Positions 1,239-13,344 of a DNA stretch of 64,000 bases are shown here, piece by piece. This stretch comes from Actinotalea lenta (GTDB taxonomy: Bacteria > Actinomycetota > Actinomycetes > Actinomycetales > Cellulomonadaceae): assembly GCF_030586465.1 (NCBI RefSeq), contig NZ_JAUQYP010000001.1:496001-560000 (forward strand), given 5' to 3'. The position numbers were made by a program, and so were the translations under genes. Position 1 is the first letter of the stretch; every line of letters starts with the position of its first letter. The notes beneath the pieces were generated by a model. The model saw only the letters and a list, made by a program, of their open reading frames with translations, ran no database searches and was not told where the DNA came from.

Positions 1239-1295
1239 GCCGAGCCGGGCACTCGGACTCGCGCCGGATCGTTGGGTCAGACGTCGGGAGGCGTC

Positions 1296-2042
1296 ATGGC
1301 ACACCCGGACGTGGTGGTGTGGGAGGCGGACGGCAGGCCCCTGCCGCGGCTCGGCTACGGCGCACGGCTCGCCGCGCCGCTGCGCGGTCTCGGCGCACGG
1401 GTCGTGGTCGTGCCGTACCGCCGTCGCGCCCTGACCGCGGCCGAGCTGTCCGCACCCGTGCACGTGCTCTCCGGCGGCGAGACGACCTCCTTCGCGGGCG
1501 ACCCGGCGACGCGCCGCACCCTCGCCGACGTCACCGGGCTGCTGCGCCGGGCCTGGCGGGGCGACGCGACAGTGATCGGGGTGTGCCTGGGAGCCCAGCT
1601 CATCGCCCGCGCCATCGCCCCGGCGCTGCCCCCGTCCTTCCCGACGAGCGGCATGGAGGTCGGCCTGTGCCCGGTCGACGGCCCTGGCGGCCCGATCGCG
1701 GTCGGCCAGCTGCACTACGAGCAGATCGACCCGGCGTTCGCCGAGGTCGACGGCGTCCGGCTGACCCACACCAACGACCACACCCGCGTGCAGGGCTTCA
1801 CGTGGGGGCCGAGCGTCGCCGGCTACCAGTTCCACCCGGAGTGGGACCCGGGGGACGTGGCCGCAGTGCTCGACCGGCACGCCGCACTGCTCGACCTGCG
1901 GCACGCGGAGCCGAGCACGGCCCTGGCCTCGGTGCACCTCGAGCAGGGGAGCTGGTCGGGACGGACGGTCACCGAGCTGCTGGTGGCCCCCGTCGCACGA
2001 GCGCTCGCGCCGGGCCGTGCGCACGAACCGGGAGCCGCATAG
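1296..2042 (+). CDS. Class I glutamine amidotransferase-like protein
   Basis: A 248-residue single-domain protein. It has the nucleophile elbow GVCLGAQ (Cys97) and the C-terminal FHPEWDP motif (His180, Glu182), so the Cys-His-Glu triad of class I amidotransferases looks complete. The ATG at 1296 is preceded by GGGAGG at a normal distance; an in-frame TTG at 1272 has no such signal. Lone enzymes of this type hydrolyse glutamine or gamma-glutamyl compounds, or donate ammonia to a partner. It lies 57 bp behind the asparagine synthetase-like gene on the same strand, so joint transcription is likely, but a functional partnership is only inferred. The true substrate is unknown. Confidence 0.8.
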
Positions 2043-6943: not shown

Positions 6944-9016
6944 TCAGGCCACGCCGAGCCACAGCCCGTCGCGGGCCCGGGTGATCGCGGAGTGCAGCTC
7001 GCGGCGCTGCAGCTCCCAACGCTCGCGGTCCGCAGCACCCGCCGGCGGGTCGCCGCGCTCGAGCAGCTCGGCACAGACGTCGGGCAGCAGGACGTGGGAG
7101 AACTCCAGGCCCTTGGCACGCTTGATGGTGCCGACCTTGACGGCGGCCACCTGGGTGCCGTCGTAGTCGGTGAGCAGGAGCACGCTCAGACCGGCCGCAC
7201 GCAGCGCATCGGCGGCGTGGACCGCGGCGCCGTTCGTGGCGCACAGCACCGCCACGCCAGCGGTCCCCGCGTCACGGGCCACCGTCCGGGCCCGGGCGAT
7301 CATCGCGACGTGCTGCTCGCGTCGGGACCCGCAGCGCTCGAGCACGGGCTCGGCGCCGTTCCGCCGCACCTGCTCGGGGCGCTCCCCGGAGACGACTCCC
7401 CCGTCCAGGTCCGTGACCTCGTCCCCGGCGACGACCCGGTGGGCCAGGTCGAGGATCTGCGCAGTGTTGCGGTAGTTGGTGGTCAGCACCACACCGCGGC
7501 CTGCCACCGAGACCCCGACGTCAGCCAGGGTCCAACCGCCCGGGTACACCGCCTGCTGCACGTCACCGATCAGGGTCAGCCCGTCGCGCACATCGCCCAC
7601 CAGGCCGTGCAGCAGACGCACCCCGGCCGCCGTGAGGTCCTGCACCTCGTCCACGATGACGGCCGAGTAGGGGACGTCCAACGGACGTCGACGCAGCTCG
7701 TCGGCGGCCATGAGAACCAGGTCGTCGGCGTCGTGGACGCCGAGCGCCCCGAGCCGGCGCTCGTAGGCGCGGTACAGCTCCCACAGCGCCGCGCGTTGGT
7801 CCCGGCTCATCGGGTAGCGCCGGCCGGTACGTGCGATGTCGAGATATCCGGCGAGGTCCGTGATGCCGCGGCCCTTGATGACCTTGCTGATCTCCACCCG
7901 CCAGTAGCCCGGCCCGCAGTCCGGCACGTGCAGCGGGTTGTCCGGGGCCAGCGCGGCGAACGCGTCGTCGAACGCGATGCGCGCGATGGACTCGTCCACG
8001 GCCACCCGGACGCCGCGAGCCGCCAGCAGCCGGCGCGCCCACTCCTGGACGCAGACGAGCTGTACGCGGTCGGCGACGTCAGGGGCCAGCGCGGCGAGCT
8101 GATGACGGAGCACGTCAGGCAGCGTCTGCACCAAGGACGTGACCAGCACGGTGCCCGGTCGGCTCCGGGCGAGGTAGGCGGCACGGTGCAGGCCGACGAG
8201 GGTCTTGCCGGTCCCGGCCCCTCCGCGGATCCGGCACGGACCGTTGAAGGAACGCCGCACGAGGGCGGCCTGGGCGGGGTCGAGAACGGCCATCCAGCTC
8301 TCGACGGGGCGAGCAGCCGCACCCGCCACCAGGGCCTCGTCCACGTCCAACGTGCTGGGGTGCGTGCGTCCGTCGTGCGGTGTCGGGACCTCGGGTAGCT
8401 CGAGGACGACCGGCACCAGGTCGGGCAGCATCTCGCGGAGCCGGGCGAGCACGAGCTCGACCTCGACCGCCGGGAGCCGACTGCCGTACGACGCGACGTG
8501 GCGGAGCAGGTCGGCCTCACCCACCAGCCGCACCGGTCCGATCCGGCGGTCCACACCGCGGGCGTCGGTGACCACCACGACGGGGCGCACCTCCCCCGGC
8601 GCCAGGCCGACCTCGACGAGCTCGCCCTCGGCGCGGTAGGCGACATCGGCGAGGGCGAGCACGTCGTCCGTGACATCCCGGTCACCGTGCAGGACCTGAT
8701 CGCCCTCGACCTGCAGGTCCTCGGCGACGTCGAGCAGGAACACCCCGCCCGGACCCACGAGCACCAGAGCGGCGTGATGGCGGCGGTCACGTGGCGGCCT
8801 CGGGTCGCGGAACACGTGGTGGCCGACGGACGCCAGCGCGACCAGGGACCTGGCCACGCTCTCTCGGGCGCCTTCACGACCGGCGTCCGGTCCGGGGACG
8901 GCGGCGGCCACCGGGGCGTCCGCCGTCGACGCCACGCGGGGCGCCGTACTGCTGCAGGCGCGCAGGGGTGCCAGATGCCGGTGCCGGTCGGTGCTGAGGA
9001 ATGCGGTGGAGGCCAT
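6944..9016 (-). CDS. UvrD/Rep-like helicase with N-terminal NERD-like domain
   Basis: 690 residues. The N-terminal third resembles a nuclease-related NERD domain (ESVARSLVALASVGHHVF, then LVLVGPGGVFLLDV). Superfamily 1 helicase motifs follow: Walker A GGAGTGKT, Walker B VIVDEVQDL, LIGDVQQAVYPGG, the TTNYRNT motif, KVGTIKRAKGLEFSHVLLP, and a terminal SAITRARDGLWLG. The ATG at 9016 has an AAAGGGGG ribosome-binding site. Family knowledge links such proteins to DNA unwinding and repair, sometimes to defence; here there are no obvious defence partners. It is divergent from the riboswitch gene, with about 180 bp between its start and the riboswitch. Confidence 0.85.
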   Translation of the reverse strand: MASTAFLSTDRHRHLAPLRACSSTAPRVASTADAPVAAAVPGPDAGREGARESVARSLVALASVGHHVFRDPRPPRDRRHHAALVLVGPGGVFLLDVAEDLQVEGDQVLHGDRDVTDDVLALADVAYRAEGELVEVGLAPGEVRPVVVVTDARGVDRRIGPVRLVGEADLLRHVASYGSRLPAVEVELVLARLREMLPDLVPVVLELPEVPTPHDGRTHPSTLDVDEALVAGAAARPVESWMAVLDPAQAALVRRSFNGPCRIRGGAGTGKTLVGLHRAAYLARSRPGTVLVTSLVQTLPDVLRHQLAALAPDVADRVQLVCVQEWARRLLAARGVRVAVDESIARIAFDDAFAALAPDNPLHVPDCGPGYWRVEISKVIKGRGITDLAGYLDIARTGRRYPMSRDQRAALWELYRAYERRLGALGVHDADDLVLMAADELRRRPLDVPYSAVIVDEVQDLTAAGVRLLHGLVGDVRDGLTLIGDVQQAVYPGGWTLADVGVSVAGRGVVLTTNYRNTAQILDLAHRVVAGDEVTDLDGGVVSGERPEQVRRNGAEPVLERCGSRREQHVAMIARARTVARDAGTAGVAVLCATNGAAVHAADALRAAGLSVLLLTDYDGTQVAAVKVGTIKRAKGLEFSHVLLPDVCAELLERGDPPAGAADRERWELQRRELHSAITRARDGLWLGVA

Positions 9017-9199
9017 GGAACCCCCTTTCACAGGAAATGTCGGCCGCACCCCGATTCGCCTTGATCGTCGCGAAGGGTGAGTTTCGACGGCCGGATCGTC
9101 CCCTGGCCGGGCCGGCGGCCGCGGGACGCGCACGTGTGGAGGGGATCGGGCTCGCGTAGGGGCCGGCCGCAGTGTGTCGGGGGCGCCTGCTACACCTGG

Positions 9200-9288
9200 G
9201 GGCGGTCACGAGGTCCAGCGCCAAGCCCCCCGGCTTGCTGGCCGGCAACCGCGCCCCGCGCACGGTGCCCCCGGGGGAAGACCCGCCC
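9200..9288 (+). promoter_or_regulatory. S-box-like riboswitch (SAM-IV or SAM-I/IV variant type)
   Basis: P1 is formed by GGGC-GGTC at 9200-9207 and GACC-c-GCCC at 9280-9288. P2 is CCAGC (9215-9219) with GCTGG (9237-9241), with an inner stem AAGCC (9223-9227) and GGCTT (9232-9236). The invariant-looking GCTGGCCGGCAACC follows, then P3 (ACC-GCGC with GCGC-ac-GGT) and GTGCCCCCGGGGGAAGACC. From memory, the order, the loop and the GGCAACC and GACC elements match actinobacterial SAM-IV aptamers closely. Between it and the start codon, GGCC-cgcgc-GGCC abuts the AGGAGG, which could sequester it. The ligand class is inferred. Confidence 0.75.
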
Positions 9289-9346
9289 ACGCCAGCCGGC
9301 GAGGGAAGCAGCGACGCGGCGGCCCGCGCGGCCCCAGGAGGTTCTC

Positions 9347-10033
9347 ATGACCTGCATCCCACCCACCGATCCCGAGGTGCCCACCGCGGCTGCGGACCTG
9401 GCGGCCTGCCACTGGGTGGTCCGGTTGCCCGACGGCGGGCTGCGCTGCGCGGTGCACGACGTGAGCACCGCTCCGTGGAACCCGGCTCGGGGCTGCGCCC
9501 TGCCCGTCGCGGGCCTGTGCCACGTGTGCGCACGCGAGGCGGTACCGATCGACCACCGGTTCTCCTGGTCGTTCGTCTGCCCGAGGTGCGGCGGCATCGA
9601 TCGCGCGATCGGCAGGCAGTTCGGCGCCGTGAGCGCCACCCCCATCCGGGGGCAGCGCATCTCGGTGATCGACACCCTCTTCGGCCGCCTGCACCCCGAC
9701 CGAGCCCCCGCCATCGAGGTGATCGAGGCCGAGGCGCGGTACAGAGCGACCCGGGAGGTCCCGCCCCCGCTGAGTCCGTACGCCGAGCTGTCCGCACGCT
9801 TCACGAACGAGGTCGGGCGACTGGCGGGCGCGATCGGGGACGTGGCGGCCCCGCCCACGTGCGCCGATCCCTCGGTCAGCCTGGTGCGTTGGCAGGCCGC
9901 GCACCCGCCGTCCGTCGCGGCGAGCGCGGAGGCCTACCGGCGCCTGGTCGTGGGCCGGCACCCGTGGCTCGTGCTCCTGGAGCCGCGCGTGACGGACCGC
10001 GCGTGGCTCGAGAGCTTGATCGCCGATGCATGA
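9347..10033 (+). CDS. Unknown Cys-rich, probably zinc-binding protein under a riboswitch
   Basis: 228 residues, no membrane segment and no named family that I recognise. The N-terminal half has a cluster of possible metal ligands: ACHW near residue 18, then RCAVH, GLCHVCARE and FVCPRCGGID, consistent with one or two zinc ribbons or treble clefs. The C-terminal half is helical and rich in Ala, Arg and Pro. AGGAGG lies 6 nt before the ATG at 9347, so the start is firm. The leader holds an S-box-like riboswitch, so expression probably responds to S-adenosylmethionine or a related metabolite. A link to sulfur or methyl metabolism is inferred only from that leader. Confidence 0.7.
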   Translation: MTCIPPTDPEVPTAAADLAACHWVVRLPDGGLRCAVHDVSTAPWNPARGCALPVAGLCHVCAREAVPIDHRFSWSFVCPRCGGIDRAIGRQFGAVSATPIRGQRISVIDTLFGRLHPDRAPAIEVIEAEARYRATREVPPPLSPYAELSARFTNEVGRLAGAIGDVAAPPTCADPSVSLVRWQAAHPPSVAASAEAYRRLVVGRHPWLVLLEPRVTDRAWLESLIADA

Positions 10034-10148: not shown

Positions 10149-10265
10149 ATGAGCGAGGAGCACTGGGCCTGCGGGTTCTGCGGCAACGAGGGCGTCGTGC
10201 CGGACGGGGAGACGATCGACACGATCCAGTGCGACGTCTGCGGCGAGCCCGTCCTGCCCGCCTGA
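10149..10265 (+). CDS. Very small zinc-ribbon-like protein
   Basis: 38 residues with two Cys-x-x-Cys pairs, CGFC near the N-terminus and CDVC near the C-terminus, which is the pattern of a minimal zinc ribbon. The ATG at 10149 has no clear ribosome-binding site, but TTGAGT lies 6 nt upstream, similar in position to the -10-like hexamers of leaderless genes in this window. Partner and function are unknown. It follows another Cys-rich protein gene by 115 bp on the same strand. Its small size makes chance possible, but the paired Cys motifs argue for a real gene. Confidence 0.55.
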   Translation: MSEEHWACGFCGNEGVVPDGETIDTIQCDVCGEPVLPA

Positions 10266-10335
10266 CCCCGGCCGTTGTCCACAGCTCCGCCGAACGGGCC
10301 ACGTCGAGGAGTCGACGTTGCTAGGTTCCCGAGCC

Positions 10336-10977: not shown

Positions 10978-11891
10978 CGCCTCACCGGAGCCGGCAGCGC
11001 TCACATGCAGTCGGCCTTGCGATCCTCGGCTTGCTCGTCACGACGAACGCTGCGCCGTTCCACACGGCCCAGTCGTCCACGGACCGCTTACTGGACTCGG
11101 CCCCGGACTTTGCCGGTGACGCGCACGGGAGCAGCGTCAGCGTCCGCGCCCAAGGGGCCTCACGGCGCGAGCCGTCCACGGGCGCCGAACAACCGCCGAA
11201 GTCCTCGGGTGCGCCGCGGTACCAGTACCGGCGGATCGCGGCGAGCTACTGCGGTGGCGAGGACGGGCCGGTCGCCCCGGGGCAGCGGTGCGTGGCCGAG
11301 ACGGACGGCGGCGTCCTCGCGAGGCTCTGTGCCGACGGCACCGGGGCCCGGCCGCCGCAGTTCCGGCGCGAGATCGACGACGCGGGGGCCCCGGTCAGCG
11401 GCTGGGTGCAGGTCGACAACGGCGGCTGTCCCGAGGACCCTCCCGCCGAGGTCGTCGTCAGCGCCTCCGACTTCGCCGAGCTCCCGCTGGAACCTTTGCC
11501 GGTGCACGTGCAACCCGCCCGTGGATCAGCCGTGGTCGGCATGGACCTGATCATGTACACCGAACCGGCACCCCAGATCTTGTCCACCACGATCCTCGGC
11601 GTGCCCGTGACGATCACCGCCACCCCGGTCCGCTACGTCTGGGACCAGGGCGACGACCAGCCGCTGCTGGTCACGACCGACCCGGGTAGGCCCTACCCCG
11701 ACCAGACGGTGGCGCGCCCGTTCCGCCGGCACGGCGACTACGACGTGACGTTGACCACGACGTGGACCGGCACCTACCAGGTCGACGCCGCCGGCCCGCA
11801 GCACCCGATCGCAGGCGTCGCCACCACCACGTCCCGCCCCTTCCACATCCACGTCGTCGAGCTGCACGCCCACCTCGTCGCCAATCCGTGA
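10974..11891 (+). CDS. Secreted protein of unknown function with PKD-like C-terminal region
   Basis: 305 residues beginning at a GTG that overlaps the stop of the upstream lipoprotein gene. A hydrophobic stretch at about residues 13-26 looks like a signal peptide or anchor. A variable Ser/Pro-rich segment follows, then a region with four spaced cysteines (SYCGG, QRCVAE, RLCADG, GGCPED) that could form disulfides. The C-terminal part (YVWDQGDDQP, then FRRHGDYDVTLTTTW) reads like a PKD-type beta-sandwich. The tight coupling to the DUF6318 lipoprotein suggests a joint envelope function. No enzyme motif is visible. Confidence 0.65.
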   Translation: MTPHRSRQRSHAVGLAILGLLVTTNAAPFHTAQSSTDRLLDSAPDFAGDAHGSSVSVRAQGASRREPSTGAEQPPKSSGAPRYQYRRIAASYCGGEDGPVAPGQRCVAETDGGVLARLCADGTGARPPQFRREIDDAGAPVSGWVQVDNGGCPEDPPAEVVVSASDFAELPLEPLPVHVQPARGSAVVGMDLIMYTEPAPQILSTTILGVPVTITATPVRYVWDQGDDQPLLVTTDPGRPYPDQTVARPFRRHGDYDVTLTTTWTGTYQVDAAGPQHPIAGVATTTSRPFHIHVVELHAHLVANP

Positions 11892-11956
11892 GCGCCTGCC
11901 GCGCCGCGACCAAGCAGGGCGGCCCCCCGGGTCGATCAGCAGCCCACACTGGACGC

Positions 11957-12724
11957 ATGGCGCTGCCCGACGACCCCGACCACCCGGCGGTCACCATGCG
12001 CGTCCACCCGGACCTTCGCTTCCTGCTGCCGCCCGGCCGCCGGGGCGGGCACCTGAGCGTCCGCGCGTGGCCCACCGACACCGTCGGCCACGTCGTCCAG
12101 GACGCGGGCATCCCTCTGACCGAGGTCGGCGCCCTCACCCTGAACGGCGAGCCCGTGGACCCCGGAGGCCGCGTCGCGCCGGGCACCCTTGACGTGGACC
12201 CGGTGCTGCGGCCTCAACCCACCCCCACCATGCCGCCCCGATTCCTGCTCGACGTCCATCTGGGCACGCTCGCGCGACGGCTGCGACTGCTCGGTCTGGA
12301 CACCACGTGGTCCCCTGACGCCGGCCGCGCGGACGATGCCGAGCTGGTCGCGCGAGCCGCGGACGAAGACCGCGTCCTGCTGACCCAGGACCGGCGGCTG
12401 CTGCACCGCCGCGCGCTCCGCTTCGGTGCCCTGGTGCGCGGCCACGACGTGGCCGACCAGCTGGACGACGTGCTCGACCGGTTCACCCCGCCCCTGCTGC
12501 CGTGGACCCGATGCGTCGCGTGCGGCGCGCCACTTCGGAAGGTGAGGCGTGCAGACGTCGTCGACCTGCTCGAGCCCGGCACCCTGCGGACGTACGACGC
12601 GTTCTCGCAGTGCACGTCCTGCGGGCGGGCGTACTGGCGCGGCGCGCACGCCAGCCGTCTCGAGGAGCTCGTCGACCACGCCCGAGGTGTCGTGGCGGCG
12701 CGGCTACGGGCGGCGCCACCATGA
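11957..12724 (+). CDS. Mut7-C RNase domain protein with N-terminal ubiquitin-like domain
   Basis: 255 residues. An N-terminal beta-grasp or ubiquitin-like region spans about residues 12-85 (VGHVVQDAGIPLTEVGALTLNGEPVD). The Mut7-C region starts at RFLLDVHLGTLARRLRLLG and continues with ADEDRVLLTQDRRLLHRR, which holds acidic residues of a PIN-like nuclease fold. A zinc ribbon built from CVACG and CTSCG follows. Family knowledge suggests RNA cleavage, but activity in bacteria is poorly known. The ATG at 11957 has no ribosome-binding site; CACACT lies exactly 6 nt upstream, as in other leaderless candidates here. Confidence 0.8.
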   Translation: MALPDDPDHPAVTMRVHPDLRFLLPPGRRGGHLSVRAWPTDTVGHVVQDAGIPLTEVGALTLNGEPVDPGGRVAPGTLDVDPVLRPQPTPTMPPRFLLDVHLGTLARRLRLLGLDTTWSPDAGRADDAELVARAADEDRVLLTQDRRLLHRRALRFGALVRGHDVADQLDDVLDRFTPPLLPWTRCVACGAPLRKVRRADVVDLLEPGTLRTYDAFSQCTSCGRAYWRGAHASRLEELVDHARGVVAARLRAAPP

Positions 12725-13152: not shown

Positions 13153-13344
13153 GGCGATCTCCCCTCGATGAGGTGATGCAGGCCGCGCTCGCGCTCGACG
13201 GACAACTCGACGGACACCGCGCCGAGCCCGGCCCGCCGACCCCTGGTCGGCAGCCCCGACGCTACGCGCGGGGACCGCTCCGGGGGCAGGTGCTTTCGGC
13301 GGTGGTGCGCGGCCCGTGCAGTCGTCATGGCGTGATCAGCCCGC

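Follow-up and report, generated by a model that had tools for sequence, protein, structure and literature searches.

The window analysed here, a stretch of DNA of 64,000 nucleotides, contains a SAM-IV riboswitch aptamer of a variant subclass at positions 9204-9316 of the forward strand, an assignment based on its score against Rfam RF00634 and on covariation in 40 aligned sequences. The aptamer is followed on the same strand by its likely target, a gene (9347-10033) that encodes a protein of 228 amino acids with a CxxC-x16-CxxC core, as seen from its translation and from family alignments. This protein is referred to below as P0001, and the gene family to which it belongs as group A. The gene has an ATG at 9347, a stop codon at 10031-10033 and a Shine-Dalgarno sequence, AGGAGG, at 9336-9341 (forward strand); the ATG lies 30 nucleotides past the end of the aptamer match and 63 nucleotides past the GACC of helix P1, a distance given as 59 bp in the preliminary description. 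Divergent from the riboswitch, at 6944-9022 of the reverse strand, is a gene for a 692-residue helicase of the UvrD type (Pfam UvrD-helicase, E = 1.4e-15). Downstream of the target gene, positions 10150-10266 hold an open frame of about 38 amino acids with two CxxC pairs (MSEEHWACGFCGNEG...), for which no Pfam family was found in one scan, the scanned frame being possibly off by one base.

The SAM-IV identity of the aptamer is firm. Scanning the whole 64-kb window with cmscan gave a match to RF00634 of 61.2 bits (E = 2.2e-8), against a gathering score of 38 bits; the match spans the full model (1-116 of 116), its score was reproduced on 601 bases, and no other Rfam family in the window exceeded its own threshold. 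The S-box-like riboswitch proposed earlier for positions 9200-9346 is thus confirmed by the covariance-model search that had been suggested for it. It is the sole SAM-IV detected in its own genome (three contigs, 3.3 Mb), where a search for SAM-I at E <= 0.001 gave no match, and SAM-IV is present in 7 of the 19 genomes of the genus and in 133 of 150 genomes sampled from the family. The helices, all on the forward strand, are P1 (GGTC/GACC, 9204-9207/9280-9283), P2a (9215-9219/9237-9241) and P3 (9244-9246/9267-9269 and 9249-9251/9263-9265), with the core GCTGGCCGGCAACC at 9237-9250; the pseudoknot PK-1 is formed by CCCCC in loop 2 (9227-9231) and GGGGG at 9273-9277. A candidate second pseudoknot, PK-2, would pair CCGCG in loop 3 (9256-9260) with CGCGG at 9315-9319 or GCGCGG at 9326-9331, giving a helix of 5-6 bp; taken alone, the 5-bp candidate of the window is within chance (p = 0.79 against shuffled tails). 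The available text of PMC6890682 places the SAM-IV pocket at residues 2-4, 7-8, 63-65 and 77. When these are mapped by position and by eye onto our 40-sequence alignment (A3), T3, C4, G7, A8, GGTGC and GACC are found to be invariant. By this mapping, the aptamer appears to keep the nucleotides of the SAM pocket and probably binds SAM.

The aptamers in front of group A genes form a distinct subclass. Compared with 36 canonical SAM-IV aptamers (excluding the alignment row CAN_L009, which is the G010 variant again), 12 group A aptamers have two more nucleotides in loop 2, a P3 of the form GGCAACCG..CGGTGCC, and 12 rather than 11 nucleotides from GTGCYCC to the end of GACC. The 12 aptamers first aligned score 57.8-75.6 bits against RF00634, the canonical aptamers 112-118 bits at 30 loci and 73.7-90.4 bits at the six loci of the same genus. 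The subclass can be described by the pattern GGCAACCN{8,24}GTGCYCCNNNNGGAAGACC. Genomes from 84,980 species yielded 37 stretches with this pattern. Of these, 36 are credible; the remaining stretch (L089), which is without P1, was dropped as chance. There were no sites in viral contigs. Within the family the pattern has 39 sites, distributed over 33 of 221 genomes, and a reversed-pattern control gave no match in the same 221 genomes.

Covariation supports the structure. Across 40 aligned sequences 99.0% of cells are paired, and both sides have changed at 9 of 23 pairs, a number reached in none of 500 shuffles. Every helix is 97-100% paired in the A3 alignment, and pairs in which both partners have changed occur in P2a, P2b, PK-1 and P3; P1 is invariant within the alignment, and PK-1 is 97% paired over the 40 rows with both-side changes at two of its five pairs. 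PK-2, taken over the 40 sequences together, is likewise supported, since its mean length is 5.4 bp against 4.3 bp in shuffled tails, the highest of 200 shuffled means being 4.75. The aptamer structure is under clear selection. Among the SAM-IV literature matches listed, as far as their text was available, there was no report of such a variant subclass or of its targets. At three sites outside the family (L118, L137 and L140), P1 is GCTC/GAGC or GCTT/GAAGC instead of GGTC/GACC, which is a compensatory change. Two further observations concern other SAM-IV loci. In L005-L007, canonical loci from the same genus, a very short cysteine-containing frame (such as VRMCSCL) was seen by eye directly after the switch; it resembles a cysteine leader peptide and may provide stacked control by SAM and cysteine. 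In L008, a SAM-I (S-box) aptamer (1291-1385, reverse strand) and a SAM-IV aptamer (1501-1636, forward strand) lie close together on opposite strands, pointing apart.

The product of the target gene had been described as an uncharacterised, cysteine-rich, zinc-like protein of 228 residues, and our analysis agrees with this. P0001 has four cysteines in two CxxC pairs of the zinc-ribbon type (C58, C61, C78 and C81), all of which are invariant in the alignment of 17 family members and very probably bind zinc. The protein has no Pfam or NCBIfam match above cut-off, no matching family in PADLOC 2.0.0 and none in PHROGs. An AF2 model built from 15 sequences (pLDDT 75, pTM 0.76) gave no PDB match at E <= 0.001 in Foldseek. 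Two matches to TRIM25 in a PDB profile search, at E = 0.3, were disregarded. P0001 and one group B protein (see below) had no match in phage records, and one group B protein and a group A protein from Micromonospora had none in plasmid records. The gene family of P0001 is a previously undescribed one.

The pairing of group A genes with SAM-IV is constant in the searches made and extends beyond the family. Searching 150 family genomes with P0001 gave matches in five, its own and G086 included; the G086 match (L051, E = 3.9e-4), which has no SAM-IV and whose frames look like other genes, was rejected as noise. The copy in G010 is 41% identical to P0001 over 207 aligned columns and also has a SAM-IV upstream. 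At E <= 1e-4, a profile of four proteins had matches in 11 of the 221 genomes of the family, that of P0001 again included; a profile of 17 proteins added five more among 394 genomes of the class, and none were added by 396 genomes of the phylum. In all 16 family and class genomes (221 and 394 searched) with a match at E <= 1e-4, a SAM-IV above threshold is located directly upstream on the same strand, a count to be read with the fact that 7 of the 17 profile members were originally found behind aptamers. The genome searches themselves used protein sequence only, so that copies lacking the switch could have surfaced. The synteny comparison called for in the preliminary description has come out in favour of a conserved pairing. 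Five weaker family matches (5.7e-4 to 0.01) lie outside this set: only G070 has a SAM-IV at the site, and the other four (G170, G155, G151 and G077), being without one, were treated as noise. Two of the 16 genes are possibly broken, as there is an internal stop within the match in G515 and an apparent frameshift in G198. In the latter (L057) the gene seems to be split, with a frame of 145 amino acids and the C-terminal part in another frame.

Genes other than group A also follow the variant aptamer. The 36 credible pattern sites precede 14 group A genes (called with profile A2 at E <= 6.3e-7, several of the genes being already within that profile), 13 group B genes, 5 group C genes and 4 others. 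Group B proteins, of about 110-150 amino acids with a GHxxH and WHH-type core, were grouped by eye, and four of them (L084, L090, L093 and L105) are only weakly alike; group C was grouped by eye and then aligned. Larger flanks were read for 32 of the 39 family sites; group A follows the aptamer at 22 of these, group C at 5, group B at 3 and none of the three at 2, as judged with profiles that contain some of the same proteins. Both group C proteins scanned match the phage repressor family phrog_3929 (6.4e-24 and 3.6e-31), and group C has tblastn matches to 172 Streptomyces phage records. Group B also occurs apart from the switch: a group B match was obtained in 19 genomes of the class, and SAM-IV was found with it in 4 (L122, L125 and L137, and L140 with model R1; for L131, L138, L139 and L140 the only model used was R1). 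Upstream of group B genes that are without SAM-IV (L123, L124 and L126-L135, in f19 genomes) a motif like TGTTTC-n-CGTGTGACG seems, by eye, to be shared, and perhaps represents a different control of the gene. L165 has, at 13223-13344 on the reverse strand, a second aptamer resembling SAM-IV (R1, 56.6 bits), noted together with 11132-12259 on the forward strand; it precedes a gene of 277 amino acids without a Pfam family, beside an HSDR_N-type restriction gene.

How the switch would act on its target is suggested by relatives with short leaders. In some of these (for example L080 and L108), the 3' strand of the candidate PK-2, ACAGG, is part of the Shine-Dalgarno sequence, and the single 5-bp helices are individually not above chance. 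This arrangement would imply repression of translation by SAM. In the window, the Shine-Dalgarno sequence lies further downstream than in the short-leader relatives. The preliminary description had instead attributed translational control to a GGCC-CGCGC-GGCC stem. The palindrome is indeed present, at 9321-9333, but when 9204-9352 is folded without constraints, the result gains no stability over shuffled sequences (z = 0.07) and does not single out the stem, so its role as a switch element is unsupported. In the unconstrained fold of the window the 5' strand of P1 pairs with the region of the start codon, and no such pairing was seen by eye in the leaders of L080, L082 and L103. A scan for promoters and terminators found none.

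The genes that are found repeatedly near variant aptamers in different lineages are of a defence or DNA-processing kind. The helicase in the window is most similar to the PADLOC model C3a187 'NERD+UvrD' (1.1e-23), with the best stretch in the helicase part; it has no Pfam NERD match up to E = 1, and its N-terminus is NERD-like by eye only. In six Cellulosimicrobium/Isoptericola-type loci the group A and NERD-UvrD genes overlap, the stop of the former with the start of the latter, and these loci have vWA genes within about 6 kb in every case and SIR2-like genes near three. Two Oerskovia genomes are laid out in this way too (vWA, a gene with no Pfam family, SAM-IV, a first gene, NERD-UvrD), with a group C gene and a T5orf172 gene in the place of group A. 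The switch heads an operon with a NERD-UvrD helicase in two lineages. In a distant family (L144), the group A gene is surrounded by part of a type IV restriction enzyme, vWA, ADP-ribosylglycohydrolase and SIR2/ThsA-like genes, as well as HNH, metallophosphatase and NERD-UvrD genes. At least one such defence-type gene is found at 10 of 17 group A loci, among which L070 and L144 are themselves query sources, in addition to the window with its helicase; there are none at the six canonical SAM-IV loci of the genus.

To put numbers on this, 32 of the 39 family sites, with about 1.5 kb on each side, were compared with 36 canonical loci of about 3 kb. Defence-type genes were found within 1.5 kb at 11 of the 32 variant sites, counting the helicase of the window, and at none of the 36 canonical loci; the sites are phylogenetically non-independent, six of the 11 being close relatives in two genera. 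The 14 counted queries comprised seven from L144, which is not in the set, and seven from loci that are (L070, L073, the window and L087, which shares its contig with L156). Restricting the queries to those from L144 gives counts of 8 of 32 and 0 of 36. None of the neighbours sought was present within 1.5 kb at the other 21 of the 32 sites. The link to defence-type genes is suggestive, an association in a few lineages and not proof of function.

Taken together, we tentatively favour, with somewhat less than even confidence, the view that the locus is a SAM-repressed SAM-IV switch on a defence-type accessory gene. A SAM-IV of a distinct actinobacterial subclass sits in the leader of a group A gene; when SAM is plentiful the aptamer would be bound, P1, PK-1 and PK-2 would be stable and the translation start would be hindered, in some short-leader relatives because the 3' strand of PK-2 covers part of the Shine-Dalgarno sequence. 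As SAM falls, the group A gene would be translated, giving a small four-cysteine protein, very probably with bound zinc, that most likely acts in an accessory or regulatory capacity at a DNA-processing, defence-type locus centred on a NERD-UvrD helicase. Because some actinobacterial relatives of the pair adjoin genes of a phage-defence type, the switch may control something beyond sulfur metabolism.

The strongest competitor, in our view somewhat less probable, is an ordinary metabolic SAM-IV: group A would be a component or regulator, so far unrecognised, of methionine, sulfur or one-carbon metabolism, and its defence neighbours would be incidental. The two SAM-IV targets named in the available text of the sources are metabolic: cysteine desulfurase (PMC8079986) and O-acetylhomoserine sulfhydrylase (PMC3774663). 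One variant aptamer (L094, among the four sites with other genes) directly precedes a metE-like gene (Meth_synt_2, 4.4e-11), a relative of which, 88% identical, lies about 3.3 kb upstream of the switch at the group A locus L076, and defence neighbours are lacking at many group A loci. However, a metE-like gene occurs in just 2 of the 48 loci searched (L094, which is not group A, and L076), whereas neighbours of the NERD-UvrD, vWA and SIR2-like kinds recur across family boundaries, and the first gene of one and the same locus layout can be either a group A gene or one for a phage-repressor-like protein. The weight given to the defence-type reading was kept despite the metE-like gene of L076 because the defence neighbours are the recurring ones. 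Of the methyl or sulfur link originally proposed for the gene, the aptamer itself and the two metE-like genes near relatives speak for it, but the recurrent neighbours do not.

A bolder form of the defence-type reading, which we consider unlikely, is that the subclass serves as an alarm for SAM depletion. A phage that destroys SAM to escape methylation-dependent defences, for example, would cause SAM to collapse and so release a defence operon, made up of a group A or group C protein and the NERD-UvrD helicase, close to vWA and SIR2-like genes. If this were true, a riboswitch would be serving as a sensor of infection. Less probable still is a reading of the variant aptamer as a leader that moves or hitch-hikes and comes to stand before unrelated genes, with a pairing of little functional meaning; the presence of groups A, B and C and of other genes behind one subclass would fit, but SAM-IV is kept in all 16 genomes with a group A match at E <= 1e-4, from several families, and the structure is clearly selected. 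Finally, it is very improbable that the ligand of the subclass is a different SAM-like molecule (such as SAH), as its deviating loop 2, P3 and joint before P1 might suggest, or that it is an ON switch, which the P1 pairing with the start codon region would fit, given that P1 GGTC/GACC, GA at 7-8 and GGTGC are kept, in line with the pocket in the available text of PMC6890682, and that the pairing is absent by eye in the three leaders mentioned and comes from a fold no better than shuffles.

Through these findings, three undescribed small protein families gain a shared and testable input signal, SAM. The findings also place SAM-IV switches in surroundings other than the metabolic ones usual for them, in some lineages beside defence-type genes. 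If the link is true, the level of SAM as a timer of an anti-phage or DNA-processing response becomes testable.

Among known systems, the aptamer is closest to SAM-IV itself (RF00634), with which, going by the available text on the cryo-EM structure (PMC6890682), it shares P1, P2a, P2b, P3, PK-1 and the pocket nucleotides. Unlike canonical members, the subclass differs in loop 2, in P3 and in the spacing before GACC, and scores lower against RF00634; the methionine or sulfur target that is usual for SAM-IV, without defining it, is replaced here by P0001, a protein without a known family. The earlier alternative of SAM-IV or SAM-I/IV can be narrowed to the former: the SAM core is common to both, but SAM-I/IV (RF01725) is described as lacking PK-1 in the available text of PMC6890682, and PK-1 is present in the window aptamer. 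With regard to candidate defence systems, a NERD-UvrD helicase like that of PADLOC C3a187 and RTasNERD-Hel has group A as its neighbour in genomes of the Cellulosimicrobium/Isoptericola type and in a single distant family, while P0001 itself matches no PADLOC model. The remaining likeness is to phrog_3929, of the Streptomyces phage R4 type, which is matched by the targets of group C and not by the window gene, a member of group A; in contrast to the phage family, the group C genes are bacterial and stand behind SAM-IV.
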